NCBI GenBank assembly: GCA_003001975.1
Contig: PVUG01000006.1
Coordinates: 1 to 64,000, forward strand
Reading direction: 5' to 3'
Source of the DNA: Martelella mediterranea
Lineage (GTDB): Bacteria; Pseudomonadota; Alphaproteobacteria; Rhizobiales; Rhizobiaceae
Length of the DNA stretch: 64,000 bases
Shown: positions 11,664 to 22,920 of the stretch, one piece after another
How the letters are laid out: every line of letters begins with the position of its first letter
How positions within the stretch are numbered: position 1 is the first letter of the stretch
The notes under the pieces: generated by a model
Database searches by the model: none
The model's input: the letters and a program-made list of their open reading frames with translations, nothing else
Told to the model about the DNA's origin: nothing
Made by a program: the position numbers and the translations under genes

Positions 11664-12295
11664 TGAAGAGAGTTGCAAAGTCCATGCTGGGGGCGGGAAT
11701 AGCCGGCCTGGGCGTGTTTGCCGTGATCGCTATGACCTCGGGCCAAGGGGCTGATGGAGGCGCCGACACCCTTGTAGCGCCCGCCCGGGCGGAAACAGTC
11801 GAGGTGGCACAAGCCGAGAAGCCGGCTGAGGCAGGATCAGCCCCTGTTACTCTGGCGAACGGTGCTACCACGGTTCAGGAGAGCTATGCCGATTGGCAGG
11901 TGACTTGCGGAATCCGCGAACAGACCAAAATCTGCACCATGGTCCAGCAGCAGACCAATGCCGAAACGCGCCAAAGAGTTCTGGCAATCGAACTGACGGT
12001 CAACGGCGACGGGCTGGAGGGCGCGCTGGTGCTGCCGTTCGGCATTCTTCTTGACAGCGGCGTGGCGCTTCAGGTCGACGATGGTGAACGGGGAGAGGCG
12101 TTACGGTTCAGGACCTGCCTGCCGACCGGCTGCGTTGTGCCGCTTGAATTCGATAGCGGCTTCACGGCCGCCCTGGTTAAAGGCGGCACGCTGAAAGTGC
12201 ATACTGTCCAAAATGATCGTCAGGAAATCGCGTTCCGTATTTCGCTCCGCGGTTTCAACGCAGCGCGAAATCGCATCGCAGAACTTTTGGGCTAG
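11660..12295 (+). CDS. IalB-family (invasion-associated locus B) protein
   Basis: 211 residues, overlapping the SapC-gene stop by four bases (ATGA). A second ATG at 11663 has the better distance to the GGAGG site. An N-terminal hydrophobic segment (MLGAGIAGLGVFAVIAM) is followed by a low-complexity Ala/Glu linker and then the IalB domain. That domain shows ESYADWQVTCG, KICTMVQQQT, an AIELTV strand, LPFGILLDSGVALQVDD, FRTCLPTGCVVPLEFD and a final FNAARNRIAEL helix. Four Cys residues could form two disulfides, in keeping with periplasmic location. IalB was named from Bartonella erythrocyte invasion, but family members are common in non-pathogenic rhizobia, so virulence should not be assumed. 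Confidence 0.85.
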   Translation: MMKRVAKSMLGAGIAGLGVFAVIAMTSGQGADGGADTLVAPARAETVEVAQAEKPAEAGSAPVTLANGATTVQESYADWQVTCGIREQTKICTMVQQQTNAETRQRVLAIELTVNGDGLEGALVLPFGILLDSGVALQVDDGERGEALRFRTCLPTGCVVPLEFDSGFTAALVKGGTLKVHTVQNDRQEIAFRISLRGFNAARNRIAELLG

Positions 12296-12331
12296 AACGC
12301 CGTGCGTCCATCCGGACACATAAAGGAAATA

Positions 12332-12375
12332 GCCGGATCATCAGACGGTTCACATTGATCGCCCGATGATCCGGC
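12332..12375. terminator. Inverted repeat between the IalB and L,D-transpeptidase genes
   Basis: GCCGGATCATC (12332-12342) pairs perfectly with GATGATCCGGC (12365-12375) across a 22-base loop. There is no T-run, so it may be a Rho-independent terminator only in a broad sense, an RNA stability element or an operator. Confidence 0.45.
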
Positions 12376-12443
12376 GACCGTCAAATAACGGGCTGGACGG
12401 GCGCTTGCGGCGGGAAACCAAGGCCCGTCAGGAAAGTATCACA

Positions 12444-13052
12444 ATGCGCCTTGCCTACCTTTTTTGCCTGTGCGGTCTGGTCCTTGTGGGCTGCACGACG
12501 GTGCCGACCAACTATCTGTCGGAATACTACGCCACCATGGATGACGAAGAGCATGTGGTCGCGGCCGTCGATCCCCAGGACCTGGACCTGGAAAACCTGC
12601 GTCAGGTCGTCCCCTATCGATCGCCCTATAAGCCGGGCACCATCATCGTCGATACCGCCGCGCGGTTTCTCTATCTGGTGCAGGCGGGAAATACGGCAAT
12701 CCGCTATGGGATCGGGGTTGGCCGCGAAGGCATGGAGTTTTCGGGCAGCGCAGTGATAAACCACAAGCGCAAATGGCCAGGCTGGACGCCCACGCCCGAC
12801 ATGATCAGGCGCGACCCCGAACGGTACGGACAATATGCCGACGGCGTGCCGGGCGGGGCGTCCAATCCCCTGGGCGCCAGGGCGCTCTACCTCTTCAAGG
12901 ATGGCCGTGACACGCTGTTTCGGATACACGGCACGACCGAGCCATGGAGCATTGGCAAGGCATCGTCTTCAGGCTGTATCCGCATGATCAACCAGGACGT
13001 CATCGACCTTTACGAACGCGTGGAACCCGGCGCAACCGTTGTCGTCATTTGA
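12444..13052 (+). CDS. L,D-transpeptidase lipoprotein (YkuD domain)
   Basis: 202 residues from the ATG at 12444, which has AGGAAAG seven bases upstream and starts a lipoprotein signal peptide (MRLAYLFCLCGLVLVGC, lipobox Cys). The longer frame from 12366 would bury this signal. The YkuD domain spans ~60-200: GTIIVDTAARFLYLV, YGIGVGREGMEF, a WPGWTPTPDMI block, and the catalytic HGTTEP...SSSGCIRM with His and Cys. Such enzymes cross-link peptidoglycan 3-3 or attach outer-membrane proteins to it. As a lipoprotein it should sit in the periplasm. It is downstream of, and in the same direction as, the autotransporter locus, but the hairpin at 12332 separates them. Confidence 0.92.
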   Translation: MRLAYLFCLCGLVLVGCTTVPTNYLSEYYATMDDEEHVVAAVDPQDLDLENLRQVVPYRSPYKPGTIIVDTAARFLYLVQAGNTAIRYGIGVGREGMEFSGSAVINHKRKWPGWTPTPDMIRRDPERYGQYADGVPGGASNPLGARALYLFKDGRDTLFRIHGTTEPWSIGKASSSGCIRMINQDVIDLYERVEPGATVVVI

Positions 13053-13388
13053 AAGGTGGAATGTGCCGGATCAAGCACAAGTGTCCTTTCCAGGAAGGTT
13101 TCACATCTATTGTACGCGCCGCTTGTAATGTGTCGGGCAGAAAGAACCAATGAACCGGTGGGGCCTCATCCGCCCCTGTGTATGATAGCTCCTCGGCACA
13201 CTGGCGTTGCTCACGAAAAGAGCCGCTGGCTTTAATATACATTTGGTGCCCCTCACTATGGATCGAGGTCGGAAGCACACGTCTGACGCCGGAAATCCAA
13301 TAATATTCCCATTTCGGGCATAACCGTATTGCCTAACGGTCTGAAAAGTTGTGTTTTTGGGTCAATATTTATCGATGCAATGAATGGC
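13053..13388. other. Intergenic region before the exonuclease-helicase gene
   Basis: About 330 bases without a gene that I can support. It must hold the promoter of the large helicase gene. No strong ribosome site is visible near any of the candidate starts (TTG 13329, ATG 13380, ATG 13389). Confidence 0.4.
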
Positions 13389-16300
13389 ATGACAAAACAC
13401 TATACCGACTTTCTCCAGCGCTGCCTCTCGATCGACCTTGAGGTCAACCCGAAAACTGCCGAAATCTTCGCATTTGCCGCCGTGCATATCGACAAGACGC
13501 CGCCGCTCCTGTCGCGGAAAGGGGAGCTTGAGAACGACCTGGACCGTCTTGAGGCTGCATTGGACGGGGTCGAATTTCCTGTCGGCCACAATTTCCTGCG
13601 ACACGATATGGAACACTTGTGTGCGTCACGTCCAAAATTGCGGAATGTCCTGAAAGCGCCAATCGATACGCTTTGGCTCAATCCCCTGGCCTTTCCAAGA
13701 AATCCATATCACCATCTCGTCAAACATTATCATGATGGCCGCCTGCAGGCCGGCCACATCAATGACCCGGAACTTGACGCACGTCTCGTTTTCGACGTTC
13801 TGGCGAACCAGCTCAACGCCTTTGAGAAACTGAACATCGAGCGGCCGGATGCCGTTACCGCCTATCACTTCCTGACGACGCGCCTCGAATATTCAGCCGG
13901 TTTCGATGCTGTATTTCAGCGTATTCGCGCGGCAGGCCTCCCGGAAAAAGCCGAGGCGTTCGCGGCGATACGAAGGCTTTTGCAGGGGCATAGTTGCACC
14001 AAACGACTGGAACAAACGCTGGGTCGCCTCAACAGCCCCAAAATCGGCTGGCCCATGGCATATGCTCTGGCATGGATATCGGTTGCCGGCGGCAATTCGG
14101 TAATGCCTCCCTGGGTCAGGGCCCAGTTTCCCGAGGCGGCTCTGATCATACGGCATTTGAGAGACACCTCATGTGGAAATCCGAACTGCGCATGGTGTGC
14201 GGAAAAAAACGATCCCTTGCGTGCCCTCCACAAATGGTTCGGGTTCGAAGCCTTTCGCGCAGATCCTGTCGACAAGGAGACGGAACGTCCTCTTCAGGAA
14301 ATCATTGTTGACGAGGCGATGTCTGGTCGAAGCCTTCTGGGAATCCTGCCGACGGGAACCGGAAAATCCATCTGCTATCAAATTCCCGCTCTTTCCAGGT
14401 TCGACAAAACAGGCGCCCTGACCGTCGTCATTTCTCCTCTTGTCGCGCTGATGGGGGATCAGGTGCAGGGAATGGAACGCGCCGGCATTTCCTCGGCCGT
14501 TACGATCAACGGAATGCTGTCCATGCCCGAGCGGCAGGACGCCTTGGACAAGGTCCGGATGGGCGAAGCCGCGATATTGATTATCTCGCCGGAGCAGCTT
14601 CGGAGCGTCTCCGTTCGATCAATCCTGGCGCAACGCGAAGTTGGATTCTGGGTTCTGGATGAGGCGCACTGCGTATCGAAATGGGGCCGCGACTTCAGGC
14701 CGGACTACCGTTACATCGGTCGTTTCATCAAGGAGTTTTCCGGCGATCTGCCGCCGGCCCCGGTCATCTGCTTGACCGCAACCGCCAAACCCGAAGTGGC
14801 GCGCGATATCCAGGAACATTTCAAAAGCCGCGTCGGCATCGATCTGATCGTTCGCGATGGCGGCGCCTCACGAGACAATCTGCAATTCGATGTCATACCG
14901 ACGCAAAAGGGCAGCAAACTTACCGACATCCTCAATGTGATTTCGCAAAAGCTTCCGCCCGATGGGGCGTCGGGCGCGATCGTCTATTGCGCCACACGCA
15001 AGGAAACGGAGCGTGTGGCCGGGTTCCTGAAACAACAGGGATTTTCCGCCGAGCATTATCATGCCGGCCTCAGCCCCGAGGCCAAACGGGACATTCAGAA
15101 GCAGTTCCAGAACGGGGATTTGAGGGTAATCGCCGCGACCAACGCCTTCGGAATGGGGATCGACAAGCCGGACATACGGCTCGTCGTTCACGGAGATATA
15201 CCGGGGTCGCTGGAAAACTACCTGCAGGAAGCCGGGCGTGCCGGGCGGGACCGCGAGCCGGCCGACTGCGTGCTTCTTTTCACGCAGGAGGATATCGAAC
15301 GGCAGTTTTCCCTTTCCGCGCGCTCGCGTCTGGCCCGGCACGAAATCAGCGCGATCTTGAAGGCGATGCGCCGTATCGACGAGCGCACCCGGAAGACAGG
15401 CACGATCGTGGCGACATCCGGGGAAATTATCCGCGCGGAGAAGGATCAGGAATTCGCGCGCGACAGTGCAACCGATGACACGCGCATCAAAACGGCGGTA
15501 TCCTGGCTGGAGGAGCCTGCGCTTGTAAGCCGTGAGGAAAACCGTGTTCAGGTTTACCCATCCTCTCTGTTGGTCCGCACACTGGAAGAAGCCGAAGCCC
15601 TTCTGCGCAAGGCGGAGATAACCGAGACACGGCGCCGGGAACTGCTTTCCGTCGTTCGTCTTCTGATGAATGCGCCGACCGATCAGGGAATTTCCACGGA
15701 CGAGCTCTGCGGCGCCAGCGGCCTTTCCATGCCGGCCATGAACAAGGCGCTTGCGGACCTTGAAACGCTGCGGATCGCCCGCAATGACATGGCGCTCACC
15801 GCTTTCGTCCATGTCGGGGTCGAGGGGCATTCCCAAGCCCGTCTAGACCGGGTTTCGCGCCTCGAGAAGGAACTCATCGACCGCATGCGGGAAATGGCCC
15901 CGGATGTCGAGAATGAGGTGGAAAACCCGCTTCATCTGGCCGAAATCTGCCAGGCCCTGCGCAATGCTGGTTTTGCCAATGCAAGACCGGATATCGTGGA
16001 AAAGTTGTTGCGCGGTATGGCGCGGGACGGCCGCGATCAGGATGGCGAACAAGGTGATATCCGGCTTCGCAAGGCAACGCGCAATACATTGATGGTTGCT
16101 TTGCAGCGCCCGTGGGCCGCCATCGACCAAACGGCGAAACTTCGGTGGCAAACGGCCGCGCTTTTGTTGGATCATCTTGTGGGGAAAGTCGCGAGGGGCG
16201 ACCGAGGCAAGGACATTCAGGTCGAAACAACCGTGGGAGACCTTCTGTCCGCCCTGACCGGAGACGTGCTGCTGCAATCAGATGGTATTCGCGATATGAC

Positions 16301-18500
16301 AAAACAGATGGAGCGCTCGCTTCTCTGGCTGCACGAGCAGGAGGTTATCACTCTGGGAAAGGGGCTGACAGTCTTCCGGCAAGCCATGACTGTTCACCTC
16401 AACCCCGAAGGCGGCAGGTTTACCCAAAGCCATTTCCTACCACTCGAAGAGCATTATCGCGAACAGACGATCCAGACCCATGTGATGGCGGCCTACGCGG
16501 AGAGGGGGATCGAGAATTCCCAACAGGCGGAGAGACTGTCCGAGGATTATTTCACGCTGGAGCAGGACGCTTTTCTGCACCGGTGGCTGCCCGGAAAAGC
16601 AAGCGAAATCCGCCGCCAGACGACCAGTGCATCCTGGAAAGCGATTGTCGATGAACTGGCGAACCGCAATCAGCAAAACATCGTTACCGATGATCGGGAG
16701 CAGACCAATGTTCTCGTGCTCGCCGGTCCCGGATCGGGAAAGACGCGGGTTCTGGTGCACCGGATCGCCTATCTGCTGCGGGTGAAGCGGGAGGATCCCC
16801 GCGGTATTCTTGTGCTCAGCTACAACCGGCATGCCGTGACCGAGATCCGCGCGCGTCTGCGCCATCTCATCGGCGATGATGCCATTGGCGTGACCGTGTC
16901 GACATGCCATGCGTTGGCAATGCGTCTTGTCGGGGCGAGTTTTGCAGGCACGACCGCCGAAACACGGGATTTCAACGCGATCATCATGGAGGCGGTTCGT
17001 CAGTTGAACGGGGAGGGATTGAGCAAATCCGAGGCCGAAGCCCAAAGGGACGCGCTTATTCAGGGATATCGCTGGATTTTGGTGGACGAATACCAGGACA
17101 TCGGACCGGAGGAATATGCCCTGATCGCGGCCGTCGCGGGCCGATCTCTCGCGGATACGGATCTGCGGCTGAGCCTTTTTGCCGTCGGAGATGACGATCA
17201 GAACATCTACGCTTTTGCCGGCGCTTCCATCGACTACATCCGGCGTTTCGAGGAAGATTACCGGGCCAGGCCTGAATTCCTGACCGAGAACTACCGCTCC
17301 ACCCGTCATATCATCCAGGCGGCCAACGACGTCATTGGGCGGTCCAGGGACCGCATGAAGCGGGGGCATGATATTTCGATCAATGCCGGCAGGAGCATGG
17401 AGCCGGCAGGCGGATACATGGCCGCCCATGATCCCATTGCACAGGGACGCGTCCAGTTGCTGGACTGCACCGCCGGAGACGCGGCGCAGGCTGTCGCTGC
17501 CGTGGATGAGCTTGTGCGCCTGTCGCATCTGGACCCGGATTGGGATTGGGGGCGCACAGCCATTATCGCGCGAAACTGGAAACACCTTGCGCCGGTACGC
17601 GCCTATGCGGAGCAGCTTGATATTCCCGTCGAGGTGGCAAACGAGAAGGTTCTGAATATCTGGCGGCTTCGCGAGATGCAGACCCTCATTGCCGAACTGC
17701 GCCGGGAACCGGTGAGAATGCTCCTGGCCGAAGATGTCCTGAACATATTGAAAGAACAACCGAACAGTCGCTGGACGGAACTGATCACCGAAGGTATCGT
17801 TGATCTGAAACAGGAATTCGGAGAGAAATCCATTCCCGTCTCCGAGCTTGTGGAATGGTTTGCGGAATGGTCGCAACTCACCCGCAAGAGACAACGGGGT
17901 CTGCTCCTGTTGACCGGGCATCGTTCCAAGGGCCTTGAGTTCGACCATGTGGTGATTTTGAACGGAGGGTGGAGCGCAGCTGCATCTCAAGGTGAGGACG
18001 CTGACGCAACGCGGCGTCTTTTTTATGTGAGCATGACCCGCGCTCGCCGGACCCTGGCCGTCATGACCTGCGCAGAACATCCCTTTTTGAAAGAACCGGG
18101 CGACAATATTCTGAGGCGGAAAATTCCGGCAACATCTTCCCACATTCTGAAACACGAGAAGCATTACCAGGTGCCGGATCTCGAAACTGTCGATCTTTCA
18201 TATGCCGGCCGATTGGGCCGGCTGAATGAAACGCTTTCTGCTATATCCCAGGCAAATGTCGACGATAAGGTCCGGCTTGTATCCAGAGATGACAGATGGT
18301 TTGTTCTCGACGGGCAAAATCGCGTTCTGGGCCGGATGGCGAAAAACTGGTCGCCGCCCAGGGGGCATGACTTCCTCGAAGGGCATATCGGCGCGGTAAT
18401 CCGGTGGCGAAAAACAGATAATGATGAGGCCTATCATCACCTGATCAAAAGACAAGAATGGGAAACGGTGCTCCCCGAACTGGTTTTCGTACGGCGTTGA
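13389..18500 (+). CDS. Exonuclease-RecQ-UvrD triple-domain helicase
   Basis: About 1703 residues from the ATG at 13389; ATG 13380 or TTG 13329 would add 3 or 20. Residues ~10-180 form a DnaQ-like DEDDh 3'-5' exonuclease: SIDLEVNP with Asp16 and Glu18, VGHNFLRHDMEHL, and HINDPELDARLVFD. A Cys cluster (CGNPNCAWC, ~260) may bind zinc. Residues ~300-700 form a RecQ-type SF2 helicase with LPTGTGKS, LDEAHCVSKWG, ICLTATAKP, NAFGMGIDKPD and LQEAGRAGRDREP. Residues ~1090-1600 form a UvrD/Rep-type SF1A helicase with LAGPGSGKTRVLVHR, LVDEYQDIG, GDDDQNIYAFAGAS, ENYRSTRHII, TGHRSKGLEFDHVV and FYVSMTRARRTL. All ATPase and nuclease motifs look intact. The combination suggests DNA repair or foreign-DNA processing. 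The role is inferred; no partner gene is obvious. Confidence 0.9.
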   Translation: MTKHYTDFLQRCLSIDLEVNPKTAEIFAFAAVHIDKTPPLLSRKGELENDLDRLEAALDGVEFPVGHNFLRHDMEHLCASRPKLRNVLKAPIDTLWLNPLAFPRNPYHHLVKHYHDGRLQAGHINDPELDARLVFDVLANQLNAFEKLNIERPDAVTAYHFLTTRLEYSAGFDAVFQRIRAAGLPEKAEAFAAIRRLLQGHSCTKRLEQTLGRLNSPKIGWPMAYALAWISVAGGNSVMPPWVRAQFPEAALIIRHLRDTSCGNPNCAWCAEKNDPLRALHKWFGFEAFRADPVDKETERPLQEIIVDEAMSGRSLLGILPTGTGKSICYQIPALSRFDKTGALTVVISPLVALMGDQVQGMERAGISSAVTINGMLSMPERQDALDKVRMGEAAILIISPEQLRSVSVRSILAQREVGFWVLDEAHCVSKWGRDFRPDYRYIGRFIKEFSGDLPPAPVICLTATAKPEVARDIQEHFKSRVGIDLIVRDGGASRDNLQFDVIPTQKGSKLTDILNVISQKLPPDGASGAIVYCATRKETERVAGFLKQQGFSAEHYHAGLSPEAKRDIQKQFQNGDLRVIAATNAFGMGIDKPDIRLVVHGDIPGSLENYLQEAGRAGRDREPADCVLLFTQEDIERQFSLSARSRLARHEISAILKAMRRIDERTRKTGTIVATSGEIIRAEKDQEFARDSATDDTRIKTAVSWLEEPALVSREENRVQVYPSSLLVRTLEEAEALLRKAEITETRRRELLSVVRLLMNAPTDQGISTDELCGASGLSMPAMNKALADLETLRIARNDMALTAFVHVGVEGHSQARLDRVSRLEKELIDRMREMAPDVENEVENPLHLAEICQALRNAGFANARPDIVEKLLRGMARDGRDQDGEQGDIRLRKATRNTLMVALQRPWAAIDQTAKLRWQTAALLLDHLVGKVARGDRGKDIQVETTVGDLLSALTGDVLLQSDGIRDMTKQMERSLLWLHEQEVITLGKGLTVFRQAMTVHLNPEGGRFTQSHFLPLEEHYREQTIQTHVMAAYAERGIENSQQAERLSEDYFTLEQDAFLHRWLPGKASEIRRQTTSASWKAIVDELANRNQQNIVTDDREQTNVLVLAGPGSGKTRVLVHRIAYLLRVKREDPRGILVLSYNRHAVTEIRARLRHLIGDDAIGVTVSTCHALAMRLVGASFAGTTAETRDFNAIIMEAVRQLNGEGLSKSEAEAQRDALIQGYRWILVDEYQDIGPEEYALIAAVAGRSLADTDLRLSLFAVGDDDQNIYAFAGASIDYIRRFEEDYRARPEFLTENYRSTRHIIQAANDVIGRSRDRMKRGHDISINAGRSMEPAGGYMAAHDPIAQGRVQLLDCTAGDAAQAVAAVDELVRLSHLDPDWDWGRTAIIARNWKHLAPVRAYAEQLDIPVEVANEKVLNIWRLREMQTLIAELRREPVRMLLAEDVLNILKEQPNSRWTELITEGIVDLKQEFGEKSIPVSELVEWFAEWSQLTRKRQRGLLLLTGHRSKGLEFDHVVILNGGWSAAASQGEDADATRRLFYVSMTRARRTLAVMTCAEHPFLKEPGDNILRRKIPATSSHILKHEKHYQVPDLETVDLSYAGRLGRLNETLSAISQANVDDKVRLVSRDDRWFVLDGQNRVLGRMAKNWSPPRGHDFLEGHIGAVIRWRKTDNDEAYHHLIKRQEWETVLPELVFVRR

Positions 18501-18516
18501 CAAACCTCGGTAATGG

Positions 18517-18742
18517 AGTCGTCTCCAATAAGGCAGTCTTGGTGGCGCTGGCCGTTCTGCCGGACGGTACGAGGGACGTACTGAACGGGCGGTTGCAGGC
18601 CAGTGGGAGAGCCAAATTCGGGATGGCCATTACCGGTGGAGAGATGTGGGAGCCGATTGCAACCGTGATGATGGGTGGTCTCGGACTGGCGGCTTTCTGG
18701 GTGCCGGCGCTTTACCGCACGTTGATGAGGGAGAAGCAATGA
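18517..18742 (+). pseudogene. RND efflux permease, C-terminal scrap
   Basis: The last ~40 residues (MWEPIATVMMGGLGLAAFWVPALYRTLMREK) resemble the final transmembrane segment of RND pumps, where PIA-x-xMIGGL...VVPALYRxL is typical. A few residues between GLGLA and VPALY appear deleted. The upstream part (NGVVSNKAVLV) recalls the conserved N-N-A-I-V-L-V helix of the same family, joined out of register. Probably a decayed internal-deletion remnant and not a functional gene. Confidence 0.45.
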
Positions 18743-19087: not shown

Positions 19088-20821
19088 TTATTGCTGTGCC
19101 CGTGACAGACCGGAGACCTTTTCGGTGGCGTGGCGGGAACCTGTGCGCGCCAGGAGGAAGACGGGCAACATGCCGATCAGCACGATGATCAGGGCCGCCA
19201 GCGCCGCATCTTCATAGGTGCCGCGCGCCGCTTCGCCATAAAGCAGGGTGGCGAGGCTTTCGAAGTTGAGCGGGCGCAGAAGAAGCGTGGCGGGCAGTTC
19301 CTTCATGCAATCGACGAAGACCAGCAGGCCGGCCGCCGTCAGCGCCGTCCGCGACAGCGGCAGGTGCACCCTGAACGCCGATGCCGAGCGGCCGTGGCCG
19401 AGCGTGCGCGCGGCATGGTCGTAGGATGCCGGTATGCGGCTCAGACCGGCCTCGATTCCGCCCGAGGCGATGGCGAGAAACCGGGCCGTATAGGCATAGA
19501 CGAGCGCGCCGCCGCTTCCCATGATCAGCAGGCCGGTCGAAAACCCCAGCCATTGTCGTGCGCTCTGGTCGATAAAGCGGTCGAAGGCGGCGACAGGGAT
19601 CAGGATGCCGATTGCCAGCACCGTGCCGGGCACCGCGTAACCGAGCGTCGACAGCCTGACGAAACCCGCCGTTCTGATATTCGGGGAGGTGCGGTTGGCA
19701 TAGGCGACGATGAAGCCGAGAAGGAGCACGAGACCGGTGGCGATCAGTGAAACCGAAACCGTGTTGACGGCCGCGCGTACGATATAGGGCGAAATGCCGG
19801 CAAACTCGATGCGCCGGAAGGCTGCGATCGCCAGATAGGCGAAAGGCCCGACAAAGCCGATGAGGATCGGCAGAAAGCCGAGGGTGAAGGCGACAGCGGC
19901 CCTGATGCCGCCAAGACGATGCGGCGCCATGGCGCGCGCGCGCTGGGCGCCGGCCGCAAAGCGCTGCCGCCTGCGGGCCAGCCGCTCCAGCATGACGAGC
20001 GTGACGACGAACAGCAGCATGGCGACGGCGATCTGCGCGGCGCCCGGCAGGTCCGTGCGCACGATCCAGGTGGTGTAGACGGAGGCGGTCAGCGTCCGCA
20101 CGCCGAGGAATTGCGAGGCGCCGACATCGTTGAGCGCTTCCATCAGCGCCAGGCTGACGCCGACCGCGATGGCCGGACGGGCAAGGGGCAGAGCCACCCG
20201 CCAGAACACGCCCGCGCGGGTGGCGCCGAGCGTGCGCGATACTTCCACCAGGCTGGCGGCCTGGGTGAGAAACATCATGCGCGTGGTGAGATAGACATAA
20301 GGATAGAGCACGAAGCCGAACAGCATGATCGCGCCCCACATGGCGCGGATATCGGGCAGGCGGAACTGCCGCGGGCTGGTATAGCCGAGCATGTCGCGAA
20401 TGATGCCCTGTATGGCGCCCAGCGGGCTCAATATGTCCATATAGGCATAGGCCATGATGTAGGTGGGAACGGCCAGCGGCAGCAGCAAAGCCCATTCCAG
20501 AATGGCCCGGCCGCGAAAATCATAGGCCGTCACCAGCCAGGCGGTTCCCGTGCCGATAATGGTGACGAGGATGCCGGTTCCGATGAGAAGCGTCAGCGTC
20601 GTGCGGGCCGCCTTCGGCAATATTTCGGCGATGATATGCGACCACAGCGTCCCCGTGTCGGCCATCGCCGTCACGATGATGGTCAGAACCGGCAGGGTCG
20701 CAAGACAGGCAATGGCAAACGCGAACGCGACCCACCCATTGAAGGTGGGCCGCGCACGTCTGCGAGGCAGCGTTGAAGCCGGATCGACCATGGCAAAAGA
20801 AGATGGCGGAGGGGCCGCCAT
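19088..20821 (-). CDS. fbpB: Ferric-iron ABC transporter permease (FbpB/AfuB type)
   Basis: 577 residues forming a fused double permease with about 12 membrane helices. Each half has an EAA loop: VSRTLGATRAGVFWRVALPLARPA in the first and AARTLGHGRSASAFRVHLPLSRTA in the second. Other family blocks include LLLPLAVPTYIMAYAYMDIL and ALNDVGASQFLGVRTLTASVYTTW. This is the FbpB/SfuB layout, which moves Fe3+ across the inner membrane together with FbpA and an ATPase. It starts 12 bases after the stop of the binding-protein gene, so both are in one operon. No ATPase follows, so the transporter must borrow one or is incomplete. The ATG at 20821 has AAAGGG just before it. Confidence 0.93.
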   Translation of the reverse strand: MAAPPPSSFAMVDPASTLPRRRARPTFNGWVAFAFAIACLATLPVLTIIVTAMADTGTLWSHIIAEILPKAARTTLTLLIGTGILVTIIGTGTAWLVTAYDFRGRAILEWALLLPLAVPTYIMAYAYMDILSPLGAIQGIIRDMLGYTSPRQFRLPDIRAMWGAIMLFGFVLYPYVYLTTRMMFLTQAASLVEVSRTLGATRAGVFWRVALPLARPAIAVGVSLALMEALNDVGASQFLGVRTLTASVYTTWIVRTDLPGAAQIAVAMLLFVVTLVMLERLARRRQRFAAGAQRARAMAPHRLGGIRAAVAFTLGFLPILIGFVGPFAYLAIAAFRRIEFAGISPYIVRAAVNTVSVSLIATGLVLLLGFIVAYANRTSPNIRTAGFVRLSTLGYAVPGTVLAIGILIPVAAFDRFIDQSARQWLGFSTGLLIMGSGGALVYAYTARFLAIASGGIEAGLSRIPASYDHAARTLGHGRSASAFRVHLPLSRTALTAAGLLVFVDCMKELPATLLLRPLNFESLATLLYGEAARGTYEDAALAALIIVLIGMLPVFLLARTGSRHATEKVSGLSRAQQ

Positions 20822-21948: not shown

Positions 21949-22920
21949 TCAACGGTTCTCGTTTTCGGTGATCGTTTTCGGCCGCGACCTTCCGGAATAA
22001 GGCGCGCACCGGTGATCAGGCCCGGAAATTCGGCAGGTTTCACATTTGCGTGACCGGCCATATTGATGGGCTGCATCTGGAATATCCCTTCGCCGCGCGC
22101 CGGAGATGACAGGGGCTTTCGATAGCAGAAGGCCACAATGTCGGTCGTCTGCATGTAGGGACACCACCATGTGCCTGGCCATCGGGATAGAGTAATTCCC
22201 GAAGAAAGCCGGTATGATGCGTCCCACACGGGTCGAACCCGTGAAGTGGATGCGCCGGACATGGGGATGCGCGATCAAGGTGTCGACCACCTCGGGTGCG
22301 TTGGTGATCAGGTTGACGACCCCTTCGGGGATGCCGGCGTCGGCAAAGCATTGCGCCACCAGCCCATGCGTCCGCGGCGTTTGTTCAGAGGCCTTGATGA
22401 CCACGGTATTGCCCAGCACCAGCGCTGCTGGCACCGAGGCCCCGACCAGCAGGGCCGGCGCGTTCCACGGCACCAGGCTTAAAACCACGCCGGCGGGCTT
22501 GCGGATCGCCATCATCGTGCGTTCCGGGTTATCCGAAGGGATCGCCTCTCCGGTCAGCCCCTGATAGGCCGCGCCTGCCGCGAAGCGGAGCTTTTCACAG
22601 AGCACCTTGACGTTGTAGGCGCCCCAGCCAGCGGGGCCGCCCATCTCCGCCGTGATCGCGGCGGACAGTTCCGATGCGCGCACCTCGACGGCATCGGCCG
22701 TGGCCAACATGAAGTGTCGACGTCGATGGGGCGGAAGCGCGGCCCAAGGACCGAAAGCATGCTGCGCGGCCTCGACGGCGCGGCGAACGTCGGCCACCGT
22801 CGCGGCGGCCGCCCGGGTCGCGATGCCGCCCGTGAAGGGATTGGTGGACTGGTAGGTCGCTCCGTTTTCGGAAGACGTCCAGCGCCCTGCGATGAAGAGA
22901 GATTGCTCAGCGACGGTCAT
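21949..22920 (-). pseudogene. Aldehyde dehydrogenase, truncated
   Basis: The first ~235 residues are a good ALDH N-terminus of the vanillin/salicylaldehyde dehydrogenase type: LFIAGRWTSSENGATYQSTNP, VPWNAPALLVGASVPAALVLGN, VIKASEQTP and IHFTGSTRVGRII. After that (near 22200) the sequence loses all family similarity, and the catalytic Glu and Cys are absent. The remaining ~85 residues are read-through, rich in Arg and Ser. It overlaps the preceding flavodoxin-like fragment by four bases (ATGA), so both were once one operon. Not expected to be enzymatically active. Confidence 0.8.

Follow-up and report, generated by a model that had tools for sequence, protein, structure and literature searches.

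The first 64,000 nucleotides of contig PVUG01000006.1 of Martelella mediterranea (the window) contain a gene that joins, in one chain, an N-terminal DEDD-type exonuclease fold, then a RecQ helicase core and then a UvrD/Rep helicase core (Table 1). The open frame spans positions 13329 to 18500 of the forward strand and offers two in-frame starts (TTG at 13329, ATG at 13380) upstream of the ATG at 13389. Since most homologues begin to align at residues 1 to 15, the start probably lies near this last ATG. The earlier note had described three DNA-processing engines joined in one protein, and this was confirmed: a single open frame encodes the 1703 residues, and 78 of the 93 loci compared contain a frame of 1590 aa or more that aligns, in a conserved order, across all three parts. 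In the remaining 15 the frame is shorter, broken or truncated by a contig edge. The gene thus belongs to a coherent family. The 93 loci were assembled from 12 plasmid loci, locus L009 and the 80 best among 580 relatives, some of which may resemble the protein in the UvrD part alone. Annotated records name the relatives 'RecQ family ATP-dependent DNA helicase', and no description of a DEDD-RecQ-UvrD fusion was found in the literature searched, which lay largely outside subscription journals.

Table 1. Features of the fusion gene and its immediate neighbours (window coordinates; residue numbers start at the ATG at 13389).
Feature	Coordinates	Strand	Evidence or remark
Upstream neighbour, L,D-transpeptidase (YkuD)	12366..13052	+	Pfam
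Whole gene	13389..18500	+	1703 aa counted from ATG
DEDD-type exonuclease fold, residues about 8-165	13410..13883	+	alignment, profile, model, Foldseek
Codon of Asn125, at position of DEDDh catalytic His	13761..13763	+	alignment and HMMER
Helical stretch, residues 166-290, with four nearly invariant Cys (203, 262, 267, 270)	13884..14258	+	alignment, model
RecQ-type SF2 helicase core, residues about 295-660	14271..15368	+	Pfam, NCBIfam, core similarity to WRN, alignment
Middle region, residues 661-1080	15369..16628	+	DprA_WH sole Pfam hint (E 0.042); helices and short strands in model
UvrD/Rep-type SF1A helicase core, residues about 1085-1560	16641..18068	+	Pfam, alignment, Foldseek, sequence profile
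C-terminal strand-rich domain, residues 1590-1703	18156..18497	+	model; conserved in family
Downstream neighbour, ABC transporter permease (BPD_transp_1)	19088..20821	-	Pfam

The surroundings of the gene were analysed by Pfam. The upstream genes encode an EAL protein, an autotransporter, SapC, IalB and the L,D-transpeptidase, in agreement with the surface locus of the earlier note. Downstream lie the ABC permease, a binding protein, one protein without a match, a HlyD-type protein and an ABC transporter. The ten neighbour proteins thus appear to serve surface, signalling and transport functions, apart from the unmatched one, and none was recognised as a defence protein. The mobile debris of the earlier note was not confirmed on the downstream side: the interval from 18.50 to 19.08 kb holds no ORF longer than 107 aa, and the two ORFs searched matched no solved structure. 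Our impression of an RND-pump remnant at 18458-18742 was dropped, as it had no PDB match. No integrase match at E≤1e-6 was found on the contig. Comparison with 13 genomes of the genus (its own included) revealed no syntenic flank pair, which would mark an empty site, among the matches listed. Composition was uninformative as to foreign origin (GC 0.578 for the gene vs 0.596 for the window; tetranucleotide rank 10 of 59). Elsewhere in the window, a stretch of about 39 bases (12289-12327) has many similar copies in the genomes of the genus, and about 700 bases (22209-22900) share 93% identity with a segment of contig C3 of the Martelella genome.

A Pfam scan of the whole protein detected DEAD with Helicase_C and UvrD with UvrD_C, and no exonuclease at E≤1. 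The RNase_T model, without a match in the Martelella protein itself at this threshold, was matched by 7 of 64 family members scanned singly (best E 4.5e-5). A profile built from 64 sequences over residues 1-290 and compared with PDB matched Staphylococcus aureus DinG (E 1.3e-4) and a TREX1 homologue (E 3.9e-4). The structure model of the region, obtained from 53 sequences, had a mean pLDDT of 92.7. When it was submitted to Foldseek, DinG was again the best match, followed by T7 DNA polymerase, Escherichia coli Pol II, the TREX1 homologue and RNase T, with weak E-values (best 2.6e-3, none below 0.001) and a probability of up to 1.00. Further matches were other polymerases having such a domain, which is inactive in some of them.

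The four acidic metal ligands are conserved in the alignment of 79 sequences (D16 in 77, E18 in 77, D73 in 78 and D130 in 79, the remainder being gaps only). The residue located five positions before D130, where a DEDDh enzyme carries its catalytic histidine, is Asn in 75 sequences, Ser in three, Ala in one and His in none. In the two HMMER alignments checked, Asn125 pairs with the His of DinG and with that of the TREX1 homologue. The protein had been presented in the earlier note as a DEDDh exonuclease with all catalytic motifs intact; the Asp-Glu-Asp-Asp ligands are indeed kept, but the label has to be corrected, since the histidine before the last Asp is replaced by asparagine. The geometry around Asn125 is uncertain because the block directly preceding it (residues 111-120) has the lowest confidence of the model, with a pLDDT of 52. 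The four cysteines of the helical stretch that follows are present in 77, 77, 77 and 78 of the 79 sequences, respectively, a pattern that may correspond to a zinc or FeS site.

The ATPase motifs are intact in both helicase cores. In the first, the landmarks are the Walker A lysine K326, the DEAH box at 424-427 and QEAGRAGR at 613-620; the Walker lysine, DEAH, TAT and the motif VI arginines occur in 78 or 79 of 79 sequences. The Walker A, DEAH and QEAGRAGR motifs of the RecQ part and the motifs of the UvrD part are invariant or nearly so, although the conservation of two UvrD motifs, AGPGSGKT and DDDQNIY, is biased, as both served as search patterns for homologues. The protein passed the subfamily-level NCBIfam model of the RecQ family, TIGR00614 (315.3 bits vs a cut-off of 219.8), and fell far short of the RecQ equivalog (355.8 bits vs 640.2). 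The RQC zinc/winged-helix and HRDC domains are associated with the RecQ family, and neither had a Pfam match at E≤1 in a scan of the protein. The second core was recognised in Pfam by PF00580 (135.5 bits) and UvrD_C (50.4 bits), each above its cut-off. The model of residues 630-1703 (pLDDT 82.6, pTM 0.57) matched UvrD, PcrA and Rep in Foldseek (2is1, E 1.6e-22), then AdnB, AddA, RecB and GajB, and a sequence profile gave a similar picture. This motor is near PcrA/UvrD, yet far under their equivalogs (150.8 bits vs 1144.45 for UvrD). The C-terminal 110 or so residues (1590-1703) matched no known family; a HIRAN-like domain, suggested by one of 45 members at E 0.24, was rejected.

The distribution of the family was examined at several scales. 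A full-length relative was present in 2 of 101 near genomes, the Martelella genome included, and a match at E≤1e-150 in 10 of 385 genomes of the class, again including its own, some of these matches being partial. The gene is therefore accessory. The host genome carries in addition a separate, ordinary RecQ gene (C4:565). At least 80% of the protein was covered in one place in 19 of 72,556 plasmid records, with identity as low as about 31% in some of them, and none of 50,697 phage records had one place covering 80% of it. Among predicted viral contigs, from which 80 loci were kept, L159 to L162 contain the gene at near full length, either as phage cargo or as host flank. In L159 it adjoins an O-like phage replication gene, and in L162 a CI-like repressor gene and a phage transposase gene, of the Mu type by our reading, lie nearby. 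Other relatives (L052, L056 and L119) sit on records titled chromosome. In two genomes (G497 and G506, loci L059 and L071), the gene has a second match on another contig, in two pieces in the former and partial in the latter.

The relatives are spread over several bacterial phyla, which are intermingled in parts of a tree of 67 rows: the label of phylum requires 10 changes there, against a minimum of five. The label is still clustered, since shuffling gave a mean of 17.6 changes and none of 200 shuffles as few as 10. Cross-phylum groupings include Desulfobulbus with Cupriavidus (support 94) and Methylobacter luteus with Sterolibacterium (support 88). Binning errors may contribute to such groupings, as many rows are MAGs.

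We then compared the neighbourhoods of 91 loci. No universal partner gene was found among their neighbour clusters, the largest of which reach 13, 8, 8 and 6 loci, and no GajA-type nuclease was recognised among the recurrent clusters. In the 13-locus cluster two members are annotated, one as an ATP-binding protein and the other as a response regulator. With the widest cluster restricted to 13 of 91 loci, the conserved housekeeping context that would speak against a defence role was not seen. A large helicase with a 7clg-like core recurs about 0.15 to 0.9 kb from the gene in L040 (8459-11593), L041, L115 and L118 (1149-5006); it has six matches in 50 genomes, and the two best each lie about 0.9 kb from the gene.

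The six-locus cluster corresponds to a NOV_C/DUF3883 protein, as found in three scanned members and, by the NOV_C search, in all six loci. DUF3883 is called a novel restriction-endonuclease domain in PMC3710099. In the 50 genomes that are the sources of 50 of the 80 genome loci, NOV_C had 25 matches in a total of 241 Mb. Six of these, in six genomes, lie within 5 kb of the gene vs 0.078 expected (P 3e-10), and the same six matches make up the count within 10 kb vs 0.13 expected (P 6e-9); the P values are descriptive, because NOV_C was picked after recurring in the same loci. These and the following Poisson values assume uniform placement, count kin genomes as independent and use rounded genome sizes. 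Among the six loci, L049 and L052 are close relatives, and in L119 the NOV_C gene adjoins a broken copy. For the type I methylase N6_Mtase, with 124 matches in the 50 genomes, two lay within 10 kb vs 0.65 expected, so that an excess near the gene was not significant at this distance (P 0.14); the 20 kb range held four (P 0.03), of which two belong to the closely related L049 and L052.

Defence genes were also encountered at single loci, given here as picked examples and not as a count. In the Scytonema plasmid copy (L239), DISARM drmA, drmB and drmC are located about 2.4 to 7.7 kb upstream. The gene stands next to type III Res and Mod in L107, a Hhe/PDC-S37-like helicase in L042, an AbiLi-like ATPase in L084, the defence reverse transcriptase RT_II-A in L049 and PDC-M21B in L102. 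CRISPR I-D genes lie 4 kb from the Thiothrix copy (L034), and a type I restriction-modification system lies about 1 kb from the Allochromatium copy (L035). In Aliarcobacter, genes for ParA, ParB and replication lie next to it. The Thiothrix and Allochromatium plasmids each carry, apart from the fusion gene, another gene annotated as a 3'-5' exonuclease (L034:18685-19266, about 1.6 kb from the fusion gene, and L035:25521-26138, about 8.5 kb from it, respectively).

At E≤1e-10, the 103 nearest genes matched 215 PADLOC families, while 103 far genes (7-10 kb away in the same loci) matched 231 and 103 control genes matched 14. These numbers count families, not matching genes, and are inflated by redundant models. 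The near and far sets were chosen by hand, not blind, from 160 and 152 genes, and 33 of the 103 near genes came from plasmid loci; the controls were 103 of 304 genes on 19 stretches of large contigs, taken from 10 genomes of the set. A simple greedy script was used for ORF calling. As the far genes match as many families as the nearest ones, the signal indicates an island rather than a partner.

Several known systems share part of this architecture. WRN, the human Werner protein, likewise carries its exonuclease domain ahead of a RecQ core within a single polypeptide, and its RecQ core resembles that of the Martelella protein; its exonuclease is of the DEDDy type and it has no UvrD part, whereas the Martelella protein has a DEDD fold with Asn and a UvrD core in addition. 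RecBCD, AddAB and AdnAB are helicase-nuclease machines with UvrD-like motors and a RecB-type nuclease; the Martelella protein differs in being a single polypeptide, in its RecQ motor and in having a DEDD fold in place of that nuclease. A search of the PADLOC catalogue with the full protein, as the earlier note had suggested, gave matches to the RecQ part (DpdF, PsyrT) and to the UvrD part (GajB), each resembling one helicase only, and none across the whole protein to one system component, among the 25 of 86 matching families listed. In Gabija, GajB is a UvrD-like helicase, by profile and fold match, that is paired with a nuclease; in the Martelella protein, RecQ and the DEDD fold are instead contained in the same chain, and a GajA-type partner was not recognised among the recurrent neighbour clusters. 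Gabija has been proposed to block the circularisation of linear DNA devoid of RecBCD (PMC12407980). DinG of the Gram-positive type, the best match of the exonuclease, likewise combines an N-terminal DEDD exonuclease with a helicase, but has the His and an XPD-type helicase where the Martelella protein has Asn, RecQ and UvrD. According to PMC12525004, Bacillus subtilis DinG is a 3'-5' single-strand exonuclease tied to replication stress, which degrades linear ssDNA 3'-5' and whose ATPase neither stimulates nor inhibits this activity.

The relatives are scattered over phyla, plasmids and virus-like contigs, sometimes beside anti-virus genes, so that the protein may be an uncharacterised machine for defence or for processing invader DNA. 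Our best reading, to which we give roughly even confidence, is that it is an accessory DNA-processing machine, spread horizontally and most likely selected mainly for defence by action on invading DNA. The anti-mobile-element role put forward from the Martelella sequence is in this respect partly supported: plasmids, viral contigs and the tree support a link of the family to mobile elements, the link to defence is more weakly supported, and the Martelella locus itself does not provide one. RecQ and UvrD motors both translocate 3'-5', and both motors of the fusion would be expected to do the same. The protein could load onto DNA that is entering the cell or being replicated, at 3' ends, gaps or forks, where the motors would unwind the DNA and strip proteins off it, while the exonuclease domain would trim or merely grip the 3' strand. 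Trimming would perhaps be slow, as this domain lacks its general base. The cut might be made in some hosts by a DUF3883/NOV_C protein, by analogy with GajA beside the UvrD-like GajB in Gabija; for the Martelella protein, the parallels with Gabija and with DinG are inferred.

The main rival, a real possibility though not a probable one, is an accessory repair or fork-restart protein of large replicons, with a layout like that of WRN or DinG, exchanged as a fitness gene and without any role against invaders. RecQ and UvrD are families of repair helicases, and the Martelella locus lacks a recognised defence neighbour, as do, by eye, many other loci among those listed. The relation of the exonuclease to DinG, linked to replication stress in B. 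subtilis (PMC12525004), points in the same direction. However, the gene is rare among relatives of a host that has its own RecQ, phyla are mixed on the tree, and NOV_C and single defence genes occur next to it. We consider it quite unlikely that the protein is a tool with which plasmids or phages handle their own DNA on entry or during replication, or counter host nucleases: the plasmid copies, the partition and replication genes in Aliarcobacter and the phage genes close to the copies in L159 (replication) and L162 (repressor, transposase) would fit, but no phage record carries the gene at 80% coverage in one place, L052, L056 and L119 are chromosomal by title, and the restriction-modification, DISARM and reverse transcriptase neighbours are of the host-defence type. 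Finally, an ordinary housekeeping RecQ or UvrD fused by chance, as the database name might imply, is very improbable given the separate RecQ of the genome, scores far under both equivalog cut-offs and full-length presence in just 2 of 101 near genomes.

Returning to action on invading DNA, a bolder version, which we hold to be doubtful, is that the family forms a new anti-invader class that couples two 3'-5' motors of different superfamilies. The DEDD domain, with Asn in place of His in almost the whole family, would act in it as a slow or non-cutting sensor of 3' ends and so license the motors, and in some hosts a DUF3883/NOV_C nuclease would be provided in trans. The altered site also makes the family a natural test case for whether a DEDD domain functions without its general base. 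A family so far named only as a RecQ helicase is thus a conserved three-engine protein, mobile, partly linked to defence and with an altered nuclease active site, and represents a testable defence candidate.
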